From Candidatus Baldrarchaeum yapensis (GTDB lineage: Archaea; Asgardarchaeota; Baldrarchaeia; Baldrarchaeales; Baldrarchaeaceae): a DNA stretch of 64,000 bases. The stretch is taken from positions 14,771 to 78,770 of the forward strand of contig JAEOSH010000006.1 in NCBI GenBank assembly GCA_016840465.1, in the 5' to 3' direction. The notes beneath the pieces are model-generated. The model saw only the letters and a list, made by a program, of their open reading frames with translations. It did not search any database and was not told the origin of the DNA. Below are positions 25,356 through 63,467 of this stretch, in pieces. The translations under genes and the position numbers were made by a program. Position 1 is the stretch's first letter. Each line of letters starts with the position of its first letter.

Positions 25356-25399
25356 ATTTCATAAACTCATAAGTTTATAAACTTATGAGTTTATGAAAT
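25356..25399. promoter_or_regulatory. 44-base perfect palindrome with central TATA box
   Basis: Every base from 25356 to 25377 pairs with its mirror in 25378-25399. The centre reads AGTTTATAAACT, a TATA box, 36 bases before the TTG start of the ATPase-DUF234 gene, which is the distance expected for a nearly leaderless archaeal promoter. Each arm carries ACTCATAAGT or its complement ACTTATGAGT. A related palindrome precedes the paralogous gene at 48590. A dimeric regulator bound here would block TBP, so autoregulation is a natural reading. Confidence 0.85.
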
Positions 25400-25413: not shown

Positions 25414-27000
25414 TTGTCCTACCTGTTACCAGTGACGGGCGAGGACTTCTTCGATCGGGAGCGAGAACTGGAGATCTTGGAAAGTGGGAAGAATATAGCA
25501 CTTATAGGACCTAGAAAGTCGGGAAAGACATCTATAATATTTGAATTTGTACGAAGACATCCCGAGAAGAGAATTGCTTACGTGTATGTTCTTTTCCAGG
25601 AAGACATCAATAGCTTAATTTCAAGAATGGCAAGATCGGTGCTAATGGTAATACTAAGAGTAAGGGATGAAGTGCCGGCGCTTGATGATCTGATATCCGC
25701 AGCTATGGACAAGGTGCCGGAAATATCGGCTCTCCTATATAATCTTATGCGACATATCAGGAAGCAAAGACATGAGGAGGCTCTCGAGGCATTAGCTAAT
25801 GTTTGCGAGAAAACCGGAACCGTAATCGCCATAGATGAGTTTCAGAACGTTTTTCAATTAGAGAAGTTCGTAGATATTCTGCGCATGATCTTACTCAAGT
25901 ATAGAAAGGTACAATGGATAATAACTGGATCCAGCATAGGAATCATGAAGGAACTGCTCATGGAACCATCATCTCCCCTTTTTGGGCACTTTGAGGTCGT
26001 ATGGGTCGGCGCATTTGATATGCCCACGGCTTCAGAGTTTCTGGAGTTCTTACTAAGGCGTACCCAATTTTCGATGCCACCCGATGTGAAACAATACATT
26101 CTTGCAATTTCAGGAGGCTTCCCATTCTACATCTCAATCATTGTCTCAAAGTCCGTAGAGAAAGCCAAAACCAAACGAAAAGGGAAAATAGTCCCTTGGA
26201 GCGATGTCATGGAAACCTTAGAGGAAGAATTGTGCCATCCGGAGGGCACTCTGTACAGGCATTTTATAGAAACTCTAGAGAAGGGTATGAAACGAAGAAA
26301 TGTGGGGAAATATATAGACGTACTTTACTGGATCGCAAAAGGAGCGTCAGATTTAACGACCATATCCAAAAACACAGGATTCAGCCCGCAGCACTGTCTG
26401 AAAATACTCAGATTTCTCGAAAAAAGCATGTTAATAGAGAGAGTGGGGGATAGTTACTTTCTGAAGGACCCTCTCATGGACATATGGCTCAAGAGAATAT
26501 ATGAGTTGATGAGCCGAGAATACTCCCCGGTAAGGGACTTTACACAAATAAAACTGATGTTAAAAGAGTATTTGGACGAATTGAGAAAGCAGATTTCGAT
26601 AGGTGCGGAGGCAAGGATCAGAGAATTGCTTAGAGCATTCGATGGAAGAAGGAAGATACCAATAGCTGGAGAAATTGTAAGGACCCCAACATTTCAAATG
26701 GTGTCGAGGATTACATGGAATGGTAATGAAATAGATGTTCTCGCAATCGGGTCCGAGGTGTGGGTTTTAGAAGTAAAAACCGGGTCTGTGAAATATGAAG
26801 ATCTGAAAACCTTCGCTAGGAAAATAGATGACGCGATAAAATCCGGAGTTATTAAGCGTGTTGACAGAAGAATACTCGCATGCCTCGGTGATATTAAAGA
26901 GAATCTGGTAACAGAAGCAGATAAGCTCGGTATCAAGATTTGGAGAAAAGAGGAGATTAACAAAGCCATGCGGATTTTCGGTTATTATCCATTCCTGTAA
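25414..27000 (+). CDS. Archaeal P-loop ATPase fused to a DUF234 nuclease-like domain
   Basis: A 528-residue member of the archaeal STAND/MNS-clade ATPases. After DFFDREREL comes Walker A G32-P-R-K-S-G-K38-T, Walker B AIDEFQ (D141/E142), and the sensor strand WIITGSSIG. A winged-helix segment follows (AKGASDLTTISKNTGFSPQHCLKILRFLEK). The C-terminal domain has E-I-D441-V and E453-V-K455, the PD-(D/E)XK pattern seen in DUF234. The start is TTG 25414 behind GGTG; GTG 25432 is an alternative. Directly upstream is a 44-base TATA-centred palindrome. The family is expanded in archaea, and its role is unknown; a defence or mobile-element function is inference. Confidence 0.88.
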   Translation: MSYLLPVTGEDFFDRERELEILESGKNIALIGPRKSGKTSIIFEFVRRHPEKRIAYVYVLFQEDINSLISRMARSVLMVILRVRDEVPALDDLISAAMDKVPEISALLYNLMRHIRKQRHEEALEALANVCEKTGTVIAIDEFQNVFQLEKFVDILRMILLKYRKVQWIITGSSIGIMKELLMEPSSPLFGHFEVVWVGAFDMPTASEFLEFLLRRTQFSMPPDVKQYILAISGGFPFYISIIVSKSVEKAKTKRKGKIVPWSDVMETLEEELCHPEGTLYRHFIETLEKGMKRRNVGKYIDVLYWIAKGASDLTTISKNTGFSPQHCLKILRFLEKSMLIERVGDSYFLKDPLMDIWLKRIYELMSREYSPVRDFTQIKLMLKEYLDELRKQISIGAEARIRELLRAFDGRRKIPIAGEIVRTPTFQMVSRITWNGNEIDVLAIGSEVWVLEVKTGSVKYEDLKTFARKIDDAIKSGVIKRVDRRILACLGDIKENLVTEADKLGIKIWRKEEINKAMRIFGYYPFL

Positions 27001-48528: not shown

Positions 48529-48580
48529 TTATCTACTTATGAGTAGTCTACTATAAAGTAGACTACTCATAAGTAGATAA
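48529..48580. promoter_or_regulatory. 52-base inverted repeat with central TATA box
   Basis: Two 24-base arms (48529-48552 and 48557-48580) are perfect reverse complements around the four-base centre ATAA. The centre reads CTACTATAAAGTAG, giving a TATA box 35-36 bases before the ATPase ATG at 48590. The arms carry ACTTATGAGT and its complement ACTCATAAGT, the same motif as in the palindrome at 25356, though in the opposite order. A GGGG ribosome site follows at 48581-48584. Confidence 0.85.
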
Positions 48581-48589
48581 GGGGATGAC

Positions 48590-50011
48590 ATGCAGAATCA
48601 CGCTTTTATCAATAGAGAGAAGGAACTCTCCGTTCTGCATGAGCGGTTTAAAACATCCCGTGCTGAGCTCATAGTGGTGTACGGAAGAAGACGCGTGGGG
48701 AAGACCACAATACTAAAGGAGTTCCTGAAAAGAGTAGGTGGAGTGTATTTCCTCGGCAGACAAGAATCGGAATTAGATCAGTTGCGCAGGTTTTCCTCGA
48801 TACTTGCAAGATACTTCGGAGACAAGTTCTTAGAAAAGAGTCCATTTACGAACTGGGATGGACTTTTTGAGTACCTTGCCAGCAAGGCTGAGAATCAACG
48901 AGTAGTGGTGATATTCGATGAGTTTCCGTATATGGTTTCTAGTTGCCCTAAACTGCCATCAATATTGCAGGACTTCTGGGATAACAGATTATCATATACG
49001 AAGATCTTCATAGTACTTTGCGGCTCCAGCATCGGAATGATGGAGGAGATAATCGGTGGTAAAAGCCCACTTTACGGTAGAAGAACCGGACAACTACGTA
49101 TAGGTCCCCTTAAATTCTCTGATGTCCGGAAGTTTTTTCCTAAGTACACATTTAGAGACCAAATAACTGTATATGCCGTTTTGGGCGGGACTCCCGCATA
49201 TCTCGTCCAATTTGATACTCAAAAGAATATCATGTCAAACATCGAGGAGAACGTACTAAGGACAGATGCATTCCTTTATCAGGACCCTCTCTTCGTGCTC
49301 AGGGAAGAAATAGAAGAACCGCGGTTCTATTTCTCAATACTTAAAGCAATAGCCTATGGCGCAACGCGTCTGTCAGACATAATTAATCTCACAGGCCTAG
49401 GGAAGGGATTGGTTTCAAAATATATTGCAACACTAATAGACCTAGATCTAATTAAGCGTGAAGTTCCTGTCACAGAGAAACACCCCGAAAAGTCCAGAAA
49501 GGGAATTTACAAAATAAAAGACCACTTTTTCAGATTCTGGTTCCGTTTCATATATCCTCACATGGAAGAAATTGAACTTGGCGACACAAAGTTCATAATC
49601 GACACTATAGAGCGCAACCTCCAAGAGTTCGTAGCTCCTGTGTTTGAAGAAATCTGCATGGAGGCCCTTAAGATTCTTAACTTAAAAAATAAACTGCCAA
49701 CTCGTTTTTTACAGTTCGGAAAATGGTGGAATAGAGGAGAAGAGATAGACATAGTTGCATTAGATCCTCGCACAAAATGCATGCTGGTCGCAGAATGTAA
49801 ATGGAGCACAAAACCAGTTTCTGCATCAGAACTCGGTAGGCTTGTTGAAAAAGCAGAACTTGTGGAGTGGATGAACGACACTAGGAAAACCTTCTATGCA
49901 TACTTTTCCTCGGGCGGCTTTACAAAATCAGCATATAGTGTTGCACAAGAATACAACATCTTTACATTTGATCTAGAAAAACTGGAGAAAATTTTCAGTA
50001 ATAAAGTTTAG
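48590..50011 (+). CDS. Archaeal P-loop ATPase fused to a DUF234 nuclease-like domain, copy 2
   Basis: 473 residues, paralogue of the gene at 25414. Walker A is G32-R-R-R-V-G-K38-T, Walker B is VVIFDEFP (D110/E111), and the sensor strand is IVLCGSSIGMM. A winged helix follows (YGATRLSDIINLTGLGKGLVSKYIATLIDLD), then the DUF234 domain (HFFRFWFRFIYPHMEEIE) with E-I-D387 and A-E402-C-K404, a PD-(D/E)XK pattern. The start is ATG 48590, after GGGG. Its promoter is a 52-base TATA-centred inverted repeat, as in copy 1. Function of this family is unknown. Confidence 0.88.
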   Translation: MQNHAFINREKELSVLHERFKTSRAELIVVYGRRRVGKTTILKEFLKRVGGVYFLGRQESELDQLRRFSSILARYFGDKFLEKSPFTNWDGLFEYLASKAENQRVVVIFDEFPYMVSSCPKLPSILQDFWDNRLSYTKIFIVLCGSSIGMMEEIIGGKSPLYGRRTGQLRIGPLKFSDVRKFFPKYTFRDQITVYAVLGGTPAYLVQFDTQKNIMSNIEENVLRTDAFLYQDPLFVLREEIEEPRFYFSILKAIAYGATRLSDIINLTGLGKGLVSKYIATLIDLDLIKREVPVTEKHPEKSRKGIYKIKDHFFRFWFRFIYPHMEEIELGDTKFIIDTIERNLQEFVAPVFEEICMEALKILNLKNKLPTRFLQFGKWWNRGEEIDIVALDPRTKCMLVAECKWSTKPVSASELGRLVEKAELVEWMNDTRKTFYAYFSSGGFTKSAYSVAQEYNIFTFDLEKLEKIFSNKV

Positions 50012-51995: not shown

Positions 51996-52745
51996 ATGGA
52001 AAGGGTTTCCTGCGGGATTAAAGAAATAGACGAAATATTGGGTGGCGGTTTCCCCCGTGGCTCCCTAATCTTATTATTAGGCGACCCAGGCGCGGGCAAA
52101 TTTGCCTTTTGCAACGCTTTTATTGCTGATGGTATAAAGAGGAGGGAACCCTGCCTATACGTGACCACTGAGCCTCCTGAGGTCATAAGGTCGGCACTCG
52201 AAGAACTTGGCATAAATACCTACCAATCAGAAAGTGACGGAATTTTTCGCATAGTCGATTGCCATTCTTGGCTCATGAAGGAGTGGATCCCCGGGGTACT
52301 AGAAAGAGAAAAATACGCAATAGACGAGTTCACGTTGCCAAAAATAGATTACCAAGTATGGAAAGCAAGAAAGGAAATAGGATCCGGCGGTAGAACGGCC
52401 TTTTACTCCCTTACCGACCTTTTCATACATATAGGTGACCGCAGGGCAATAGTTGAATTGATAAAGAGCCTGAGAGCTAGAACCAGAGAATTGAAGACAA
52501 CCATGCTTGCAGACCTAGACCTAAAAACTCAGGAAAGTTCATGGACGCGTGCATTGATGCACGTATGTGATGGTATTATACTTTTTAGGACACTGGAGTT
52601 CGAAGACAAGTTCCTACGGACATTCAGAGTAATAAAAATGCCGCATGAACATGATTCGCACCTTTATTGCTTCGATCTCAGGGGGCAAAAGATACTGAAC
52701 ATTAGGAGGTATAGCGGAGCTCTCCCTCAAATCGAACTGCCATGA
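51996..52745 (+). CDS. KaiC-like RecA-fold protein with altered Walker A
   Basis: 249 residues. The KaiC/RadA-like opening is VSCGIKEIDEILGGGFPRGSLILLLGDPGAGK, but Walker A reads G29-D-P-G-A-G-K35-F36, so the Thr/Ser that binds Mg-ATP is replaced by Phe. Later there are AFIADGIKRREPCLYVTTEPP (KaiC-type), and DLDLKTQESSWTRALMHVCDGIILFR near the end. It may bind but not hydrolyse ATP, or be a regulator. It is convergent with the GvpD-like gene with no gap. A dyad and a good TATA box lie upstream. Confidence 0.78.
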   Translation: MERVSCGIKEIDEILGGGFPRGSLILLLGDPGAGKFAFCNAFIADGIKRREPCLYVTTEPPEVIRSALEELGINTYQSESDGIFRIVDCHSWLMKEWIPGVLEREKYAIDEFTLPKIDYQVWKARKEIGSGGRTAFYSLTDLFIHIGDRRAIVELIKSLRARTRELKTTMLADLDLKTQESSWTRALMHVCDGIILFRTLEFEDKFLRTFRVIKMPHEHDSHLYCFDLRGQKILNIRRYSGALPQIELP

Positions 52746-54122
52746 TTAACTGATCCTCTTCAACTCTATGACCACATGATCCTCCTTTTCAGATAAGTTT
52801 ACACCGTAAAGTGGTGTGTATGGTTTTTCACCCATTACGAACATTCGACCGTATTTTACCATGACCTTCACTATTACATCTGCCAACCTCTTAATCTCCT
52901 CGGAATGCTCGGTGCCTGTTGCAAGTGTTGTCAATAATACATTGTTAGTATCCCTAATCATGTTCACAACCTCTAAGAAGACTCTTCGCGCCCCCTCATC
53001 GCCTAAGATCTCGGCGAGGCAGTTAAAACTCATAACAACTACTGTGAGTCCTCCTGTGATCGATTTGAGTTCGTCAACGTTCTTTAATACGGTCTCAAAG
53101 AACGTCCATGAAATCCTAGTCTCCACGCTCTCTCGTTTCGGCTTAATAACGCGCACTCGATCGTAATATTCATCAGGAACGCCATACGGCTTAAAAAGAT
53201 TCCTTATATCCTCTAACACGAGTCTATGTGATGAGAAAAGTACAGCAGTCCTCTTCTTAAGAGCCTCCACTATCAGCGGAATTATCAGTATTTCACAAAC
53301 TTCTTCCTCATATTCCGAGTCAATCTCCAATAGAATTACTCTTCTCTCCTCAAAGTTTCTCAAAAATCTCACGGGTGAAGGCTCCTCTCCATCCCTCAAA
53401 ATGATTTTGCGATTCCGCCATAGTACTATCTTCTTATCGCCAAATGTTGAATCAAAGCAGAAGAATCTCCCCTTATGTAGTGTGAATGGATACACGGGGC
53501 TGCTGACTTCCACACCGCGCAACTTCTTAATAACCAACTCCCGAAAAATTCTACCATTTACGTTAACATTCCTTAACTCCACCACCCCGTCTGCAACAAA
53601 GTCAAGAACATTAATGTCTCCTCGTTCCGAAACCATAAGGGTCTTCACCTTAAGTCTGCGCGCAAAGTCTGCAATCGTATTAGCGAGATCGCCATAATCT
53701 GCCTTAAGAGCATTATGTAATGCGTCAAAACTGTCTATGACCAACATAACATTGCCTTGGCTCTTCAACTCTTCAACTCTAGAATACGTGTACTTTAGGA
53801 ATTCCGGAACACTCGCGTACCTTAAAGCTTCTCCAATTCCCGTCGGCATCGCAAGCATAGACTTTGTCGTATCGACAAGGTTCTCCGGGGGTATGAACTC
53901 TCGTATCCATGGGTGTTGTCCGTAAATAGACTCAGGATCAACCCTTGCGGCGAAGTAAATTCCGCAACCGGGCTTCGCAATCTCGCGTATACATTCGAAG
54001 CTGAAAATGGTCTTTCCGGTACCAGCATCACCCTTTACGGCAAGCACGTAGTTACCGTCTTTTGAGAAAAATTCCTCTATCTCTGGCGGTATCCTGTACA
54101 ACACGCTTAATCCTTGCTCCAT
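52746..54122 (-). CDS. GvpD-like RecA-fold ATPase, copy 2
   Basis: About 458 residues, paralogue of the gene at 39094. Walker A is LAVKGDAGTGKTIFS, here with an intact Thr; Walker B is MLVIDSFDALHNAL, then MVSERGDINVLDFVADGVVEL. The opening RIPPEIEEFFSKDGNYVLAVKG mirrors copy 1 (VPEEIRRFFSVKGNNILLVKG). I choose ATG 54122 over TTG 54170; the first 16 residues of the longer form look unlike the family. It converges on the KaiC-like gene. Both GvpD copies keep the P-loop while the KaiC-like protein has lost its Thr, which suggests a division of labour. Confidence 0.75.
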   Translation of the reverse strand: MEQGLSVLYRIPPEIEEFFSKDGNYVLAVKGDAGTGKTIFSFECIREIAKPGCGIYFAARVDPESIYGQHPWIREFIPPENLVDTTKSMLAMPTGIGEALRYASVPEFLKYTYSRVEELKSQGNVMLVIDSFDALHNALKADYGDLANTIADFARRLKVKTLMVSERGDINVLDFVADGVVELRNVNVNGRIFRELVIKKLRGVEVSSPVYPFTLHKGRFFCFDSTFGDKKIVLWRNRKIILRDGEEPSPVRFLRNFEERRVILLEIDSEYEEEVCEILIIPLIVEALKKRTAVLFSSHRLVLEDIRNLFKPYGVPDEYYDRVRVIKPKRESVETRISWTFFETVLKNVDELKSITGGLTVVVMSFNCLAEILGDEGARRVFLEVVNMIRDTNNVLLTTLATGTEHSEEIKRLADVIVKVMVKYGRMFVMGEKPYTPLYGVNLSEKEDHVVIELKRIS

Positions 54123-54463
54123 TCCAATGCACCCTCTCGATAACTTCCGAAAGCTACTTGTATAAGTCAATGCTTGATCCTTTTTAAAGTTCTTTTTGTG
54201 TCAATTATCGGTATCGAAACATACAACTATTAATTCCATTTCGAAGCATAATTGTGCTAATTACTGCCTAACGATGACATTTTATGTACAGAAATATTAT
54301 CAATAATCCAGTAATCCAAAGTCCAATAATCGAAATCATTGCTATTACTATAACTATAGCACACGTATCTGTTCACATTTTCGTCGCATAATATTCGTCA
54401 TAAATTTGAAACCTTCTTACCCTCTCACTGTTGGGTTTTTATTTTCTGCTGAGGATATATTTT

Positions 54464-63292: not shown

Positions 63293-63463
63293 ATGAAAGT
63301 AAAGATCAGCCTATCGCTCAGAAAGCCGCACCCTCCGTACGATTTTGAAACAGATGATAAATTTCATACATGTATATTGAAGAAACTTCTCAGTTGCTGG
63401 AGGCTGTTTCATAATTTTACAAAAGTAAAGGGGAGGGTCTATAGGGGCGGGCCGCCCCCATAG
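63293..63463 (+). pseudogene. Possible 5' remnant of a gene cut by the insertion sequence
   Basis: From ATG 63293 a frame gives MKVKISLSLRKPHPPYDFET and about 35 more residues before a stop at 63461-63463, inside the insertion sequence. The first ~35 codons look coding and the rest do not. This is what a host gene interrupted near 63400 would look like. No family can be named from so little, and chance is possible. Confidence 0.35.
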
Positions 63464-63467
63464 ACCC
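63435..63467 (+). promoter_or_regulatory. Hairpin abutting the transposase start codon
   Basis: GGGTCTAT...GGGGCGG and CCGCCCCCATAGACCC form 16-base arms with one mismatch and a one-base centre, ending on the base before ATG 63468. In RNA read through from outside, this stem would hide the GGGGAGGG ribosome site at 63430-63437 and limit transposase synthesis, a common IS safeguard. Confidence 0.55.

Follow-up and report, generated by a model that had tools for sequence, protein, structure and literature searches.

Single-gene defence candidates in which an ATPase is fused to a PD-(D/E)XK domain have been described under the names PDC-S27 and PDC-S01; PDC-S27 is a common, still unvalidated candidate in archaea, and most such single-gene candidates await experimental validation (PMC12988326). 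Self-regulation through several inverted repeats is already known from two other systems. In AbiE, which is defence-related, the promoter of the regulator AbiEi contains several inverted repeats to which AbiEi itself binds (PMC7319586), and the controller (C) proteins of type II restriction-modification systems regulate themselves cooperatively via several operator sites, an arrangement suited to the horizontal transfer of a nuclease (PMC3115060, PMC3758141). In this study, a window of 64,000 nucleotides from Candidatus Baldrarchaeum yapensis was analysed, and one of its genes, P0001, was found to resemble PDC-S27 and PDC-S01 in the ATPase/PD-(D/E)XK fusion and to carry several dyads over its own promoter, as in autoregulated operators of the AbiEi or C-protein type. 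The differences are as follows: no operator is mentioned for the PDC candidates in PMC12988326; AbiE is a two-gene toxin-antitoxin system, whereas here the regulator, the ATPase and the nuclease would be one protein; and the C proteins are separate regulators beside methyltransferase and endonuclease genes, none of which lies beside P0001. No description of operators for DUF234-ATPase or PDC-S27 genes was found in the open-access literature searched, the coverage of which was incomplete.

P0001 (48590..50011, + strand) encodes a protein of 473 aa that matched both ATPase_2 (PF01637; 117.9 bits, gathering score 33.2) and DUF234 (PF03008; 107.4 bits, gathering score 22.5), and the PDC-S27 model of PADLOC covered residues 5-451, nearly the full length, at E 2.2e-58. 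An AlphaFold2 model built from 39 sequences (mean pLDDT 94.6) predicted an AAA+ part followed by a winged helix and, at the C-terminus, a part in which D387, E402 and K404 take up a PD-(D/E)XK arrangement. The AAA+/STAND-like ATPase part (residues 1-230; 49279 is its last position, from 48590, + strand) contains Walker A at G32-T39, Walker B at D110-E111 and an invariant P202 within a GxP-like GGTP. The winged-helix region (residues 244-309; 49319..49516, + strand), composed of H244-255, H261-268, H272-284, E288-291 and E306-309, showed weak HMM similarity to MsvR and Sso10a. In the DUF234 part (49712..49969, + strand), the D...ExK catalytic residues of the PD-(D/E)XK superfamily are conserved among the 39 sequences, D387 and E402 being invariant and K404 present in at least 90%; the order of strands and helices fits the PD-(D/E)XK core, but no PDB match covering this part was found among the matches listed, which span mainly residues 1-327. 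The best structural matches to residues 1-320 were PABY2304 (2qen, Z 23.1) and SSO1545 (2fna, Z 20.8), which share the AAA+ part plus winged helix typical of STAND and archaeal AAA+ ATPases; their chains of about 350 residues, however, lack the DUF234 part. Plant NLRs (Z about 16) and Orc1/Cdc6 (2qby, Z 15.1) followed. The Orc1/Cdc6 initiators and the plant NLR resistosomes have the same combination of ATPase and winged-helix fold, but evidence of an origin or of an NLR-type sensor domain was absent at P0001, and fold likeness alone shows no function. P0001 is a candidate gene for a defence nuclease. Its neighbours encode a metallo-beta-lactamase-like protein and ProRS; just downstream of ProRS (51996-54170 of the window), a KaiC-like ATPase gene and a GvpD-type P-loop gene are convergent.

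The inverted repeat before P0001 (48529..48580, unstranded like its dyads) had been presented in the preliminary description as a palindrome with 24-base arms and a central TATA box, and it was present as described, with two perfect 24-nt arms, a centre of 4 nt and a distance of 35.5 bases from the centre to the start codon at 48590. The feature is better described as an array than as a plain palindrome: it consists of three dyads, CTACT-TATG-AGTAG at 48533..48546, CTACT-ATAA-AGTAG at 48548..48561 and CTACT-CATA-AGTAG at 48563..48576, whose starts are spaced by exactly 15 bp and which are enclosed by symmetric flanks (TTAT/ATAA). The middle dyad contains TATAAA (48552-48557), a candidate TATA box from its sequence and from archaeal promoter geometry; by the same standard geometry, transcription would start near 48580 and leave a leader of about 10 nt. 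Within the window, CTACTN4AGTAG occurs only in these three dyads, and the rest of the genome adds two single copies, a number close to that of the backwards control. The window was also scanned for Rfam families and tRNAs, with no matches.

The other palindrome of the preliminary description (25356..25399, unstranded), before P0002 (25414..27000, + strand), was likewise present. It is a perfect 44-bp palindrome in which AAACT-N4-AGTTT occurs as two dyads (25363 and 25379) with a spacing of 16 bp, and its centre lies 36.5 bases before the start if TTG at 25414 is taken as the start codon, so that the two centre-to-start distances are indeed nearly equal. The 10-mer ACTTATGAGT/ACTCATAAGT was also present in both arms of both palindromes. 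The idea that two DUF234 paralogues share one promoter design did not survive comparison, however: the spacing is 15 bp at P0001 versus 16 bp at P0002, the dyads number three versus two, the half-sites differ, and only P0001 matches DUF234. P0002 is an ATPase_2 protein (PF01637; 59.8 bits, gathering score 33.2) with no Pfam match to DUF234 (PF03008) at E 0.001; near its C-terminus it has an EID...EVK motif similar to that of P0001, and it shares 24% identity with P0001. A search of 227 genomes of the phylum at E 1e-15 gave no homologue of P0002, and plasmids yielded weak partial matches and nothing better. The common 10-mer, rather than being a signature of the family, is merely one instance of ACT-N4-AGT. 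Counted in the 2.27-Mb genome, ACTTATGAGT/ACTCATAAGT occurs 10 times against 6.0 expected from base composition, four of these copies being in the two palindromes, and a role as a general operator was rejected.

Both palindromes of the window are far beyond chance, with scores of 23.2 (48529) and 22.0 (25356), while 15 first-order Markov shuffles of the window contained none scoring 12 or more. In 464 kb of the genome, made up of the window and a 400-kb sample, six palindromes reached a score of at least 12, and four of them lie at ATPase_2 genes. Three belong to the sample, two at other ATPase_2 genes, and three to the window, where the third (63435) is almost a repeat of the sample's other palindrome; these last two are copies of a GGGTCTATAGGGG hairpin. 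The near-identical GGGTCTATAGGGG...CCCC(T)ATAGACCC hairpins (63435-63467 of the window and L171:6395-6434) stand beside degraded ORFs resembling a transposase remnant and are possibly the ends of an insertion sequence. At L187:8317-10280 (G000:C89), an ATPase_2 gene has a 31-bp palindrome at its start; this gene seems split into two frames of 128 and 447 aa, separated by about 230 bases.

As the preliminary description had proposed, upstream regions of DUF234 ATPases were compared, and a common 15-bp layout with gene-specific letters was found. The main set comprised 118 distinct DUF234-ATPase genes from genome G000 and its phylum, a DPANN phylum reached via a Woesearchaeota genome, haloarchaeal plasmids and bacteria, and each promoter was compared with itself at lags 6-40. 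A single peak appeared at lag 15 (0.383 versus 0.304 shuffled, with neighbouring lags at about 0.30). Lag 15 was the best of the 33 lags in 48/118 genes, and in 34/89 once similar proteins had been removed, versus 5/492 ORFs of the own genome and 3/227 neighbouring ORFs as controls. The pattern was first spotted by eye in this main set, a bias answered in part by a held-out set, in which lag 15 was the best in 12/12 plasmid genes fetched later (Halobacteria, Rhizobium, Vibrio, Bacteroides and Fusobacterium). When three dyads in register were scored, only period 15 exceeded the shuffles; 15 genes scored at least 11/12 and no shuffled promoter did. The letters vary by gene, as in L110, where ATAAA-N4-TTTAT is repeated three times. 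The array is thus frequent and widespread in the family and not universal: lag 15 was not the best in 70/118 genes, some of which carry a start-codon dyad instead, and the clade of L002, L088, L098, L100, L102 and L117 is without a clear array. Its position relative to the core promoter is variable among the members. Of 31 bacterial genes, 22 have TATAAT inside the array or at it, and overlap of array and promoter is thus seen in both domains; certain haloarchaeal arrays are placed at about -75 to -30, and those of one haloarchaeal group seem to be situated upstream of the TATA region. Because leader lengths differ, the averaged single dyad-symmetry profile was blurred, except for a peak at -7.

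The dyad symmetry looks to be under selection, and here the earlier suggestion of diverging arms with a preserved dyad was borne out. P0001 and L079 have the same centre, ATAA, and 15/20 left-arm bases in common; by direct count, 5/5 left-arm differences have a complementary change on the right, where two further changes lack a counterpart. Moreover, a second class of promoters has a single dyad, the centre of which lies 7 bases ahead of the start codon and the right arm of which is in the first codons. When 19 candidates of this class were picked with the inner arms as the sole criterion, 96/114 cells of the outer arms were paired; permuted arms gave 61.6 +- 5.1 (maximum 83 of 5000), and four slid versions of the arms gave 20-41 paired cells. 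The arms covary even where one of them is coding sequence. On one DPANN contig (G471:C53), the tandem DUF234 paralogues L205/L193 have differing outer dyad arms (GTTGTA/TACAAC, TTCGAA/TTCGAA, AGTAA/TTACT).

The spelling of the half-sites follows the clade of the gene and not the host genome. The clade of P0001 is fully supported and comprises, besides P0001 itself, five genes from DPANN and two from another family of the same phylum as P0001; of these clade-mates, L073, L074, L191 and L192 have TACT-N4-AGTA dyads at 15 bp, some of them imperfect, and L190 fits this pattern by eye, whereas L037 does not. The paralogues of P0001 in its own genome are without TACT-N4-AGTA sites. This genome has 22 ATPase_2 matches, of which 15 are marked as above the cut-off. 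Its DUF234 genes, four in number, fall in four separate places in the tree. Among its other ATPase_2 genes, tandem dyads of differing spelling were found at 20 bp (L006), 16 bp (L007, L010 and L011) and 15 bp (L004 and L019), with L012 and L013 as weaker cases. In this respect the operators are private to their genes. Furthermore, they are inherited with them: in six haloarchaeal plasmid genes, five of which were used for pairwise identity because two are near-identical, upstream identity was 0.96 at -30..-21, fell to background beyond about -50 and was about 0.24 beyond -70.

These computations established the array, its period, its presence at many archaeal and bacterial members of the family and its gene-specific spelling; they also established that its symmetry is kept under change and that it is co-inherited with the gene. 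We consider it probable that P0001 carries a private operator array over its own promoter which is bound by the P0001 product itself for autoregulation, with repression the likeliest outcome. Since the array is private to the gene and moves with it, its simplest reader is the gene's own product. Three palindromic sites with an exact 15-bp period, in a spelling private to the gene, would cover the core promoter of this DUF234 ATPase-nuclease gene; the winged helix of the product would contact them, with the product acting as dimers that cooperate or as a higher oligomer, and the bound product would control its own synthesis, most likely at P0001 by blocking the TATA region. A gene carrying its own operator would be properly controlled wherever it lands, and its paralogues would not be cross-regulated. 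The apparent placement of the array upstream of the TATA region in one haloarchaeal group implies that repression is not universal, and control may have a different sign in different members. In STAND ATPases, the winged helix can have a structural role instead of binding DNA. Among pairs more than 45% identical, the partial correlation of operator similarity was r 0.39 with winged-helix identity, 0.29 with the nuclease part and -0.12 with the ATPase part; across all pairs, which are not independent, the correlations were weak and the nuclease part was slightly above the winged helix. The confidently modelled winged helix and the correlation among close pairs agree with self-binding, without proving it.

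An operator read by a separate regulator of the host or a plasmid, and not by the ATPase itself, is an unlikely alternative. At least one haloarchaeal gene does have another helix-turn-helix gene nearby, but no conserved neighbouring regulator was seen, the two neighbours of P0001 being of other kinds. Moreover, with a spelling unique to each gene and arrays that stay with the gene across phyla, one trans regulator per gene would be required. An extension of self-binding, which we regard as quite unlikely, is that the array serves as a guarded self-site: the STAND-like ATPase-nuclease would sit as an ordered oligomer on its own 15-bp array, and a disturbance of this protein-DNA complex by an invader would release or activate the nuclease, so that promoter, sensor and effector would form one unit with a recognition code diversifying in each paralogue.

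The preliminary description had further held that palindrome and gene travel as one module, and an alternative reading is that the palindrome is a recombination or insertion site by which the ATPase gene inserts and moves. DUF234 is indeed patchy (23/99 related genomes), the DUF234 genes of this genome belong to four clades, such genes are frequent on plasmids, and operator and gene form a conserved block with unrelated DNA upstream. The relatives obtained are too distant for an empty-site comparison: the closest ProRS is 65% identical to that of the window, and its locus, like all of the 29 relatives' loci fetched, is without this ATPase. That palindrome and gene stay together was upheld by the haloarchaeal upstream identity and the clade-shared TACT-N4-AGTA, but no sign of a transposing unit was found: the P0001 flanks share no direct 9-mer and one inverted 9-mer only, which is of low complexity, so neither a terminal repeat nor a target-site duplication was seen. 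As no matching ends flank P0001, the module therefore amounts to the gene plus its promoter. The palindrome is also on one side only, its spelling differs between paralogues of one genome, and an insertion site leaves the 15-bp period and the overlap with promoter elements unexplained; we hold a mobile-element end to be very unlikely. As to the carriers of such genes, no relative of P0001 was found in the viral contigs scanned; eight records of a phage collection (H41-H48) contain relatives, most from human faecal samples and one from the Wolbachia phage WO. The plasmid DUF234 ATPase genes L152, L153, L154 and L159 have ParA or ParM/StbA partition genes as direct or close neighbours, and the haloarchaeal L255, carried by a 53-kb plasmid, has a TnpB-family gene on either side.

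A hairpin in the mRNA leader that controls translation would suit the second promoter class, where the right arm is in the first codons. With TATAAA central in the P0001 array and TATAAT in or at the bacterial ones, however, much of the array should not be transcribed, and the more distant haloarchaeal arrays speak against a leader element as well; given the promoter overlap in both domains, a DNA operator is the better reading than either an RNA hairpin or the end of a transposon, and we judge translational control highly improbable. Symmetry made by mutation rather than selection is barely credible: quasi-palindrome templated correction can turn imperfect arms into perfect ones, but palindromes of this kind cluster at ATPase_2 genes in the 464 kb, and the process leaves unexplained the imperfect dyads with a strict 15-bp period in many arrays of the family.

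In conclusion, self-binding and autoregulation remain our preferred reading of the array before P0001, and the private spelling suggests that each gene carries its own on/off switch. An operator layout common to several archaeal groups and bacteria hints at how these genes may be controlled, and the arrays provide exact DNA sites for binding assays. Private arrays would explain how many paralogues are kept in one genome without cross-talk, and the arrays together with their proteins form a natural paired set from which a recognition code may be learned.
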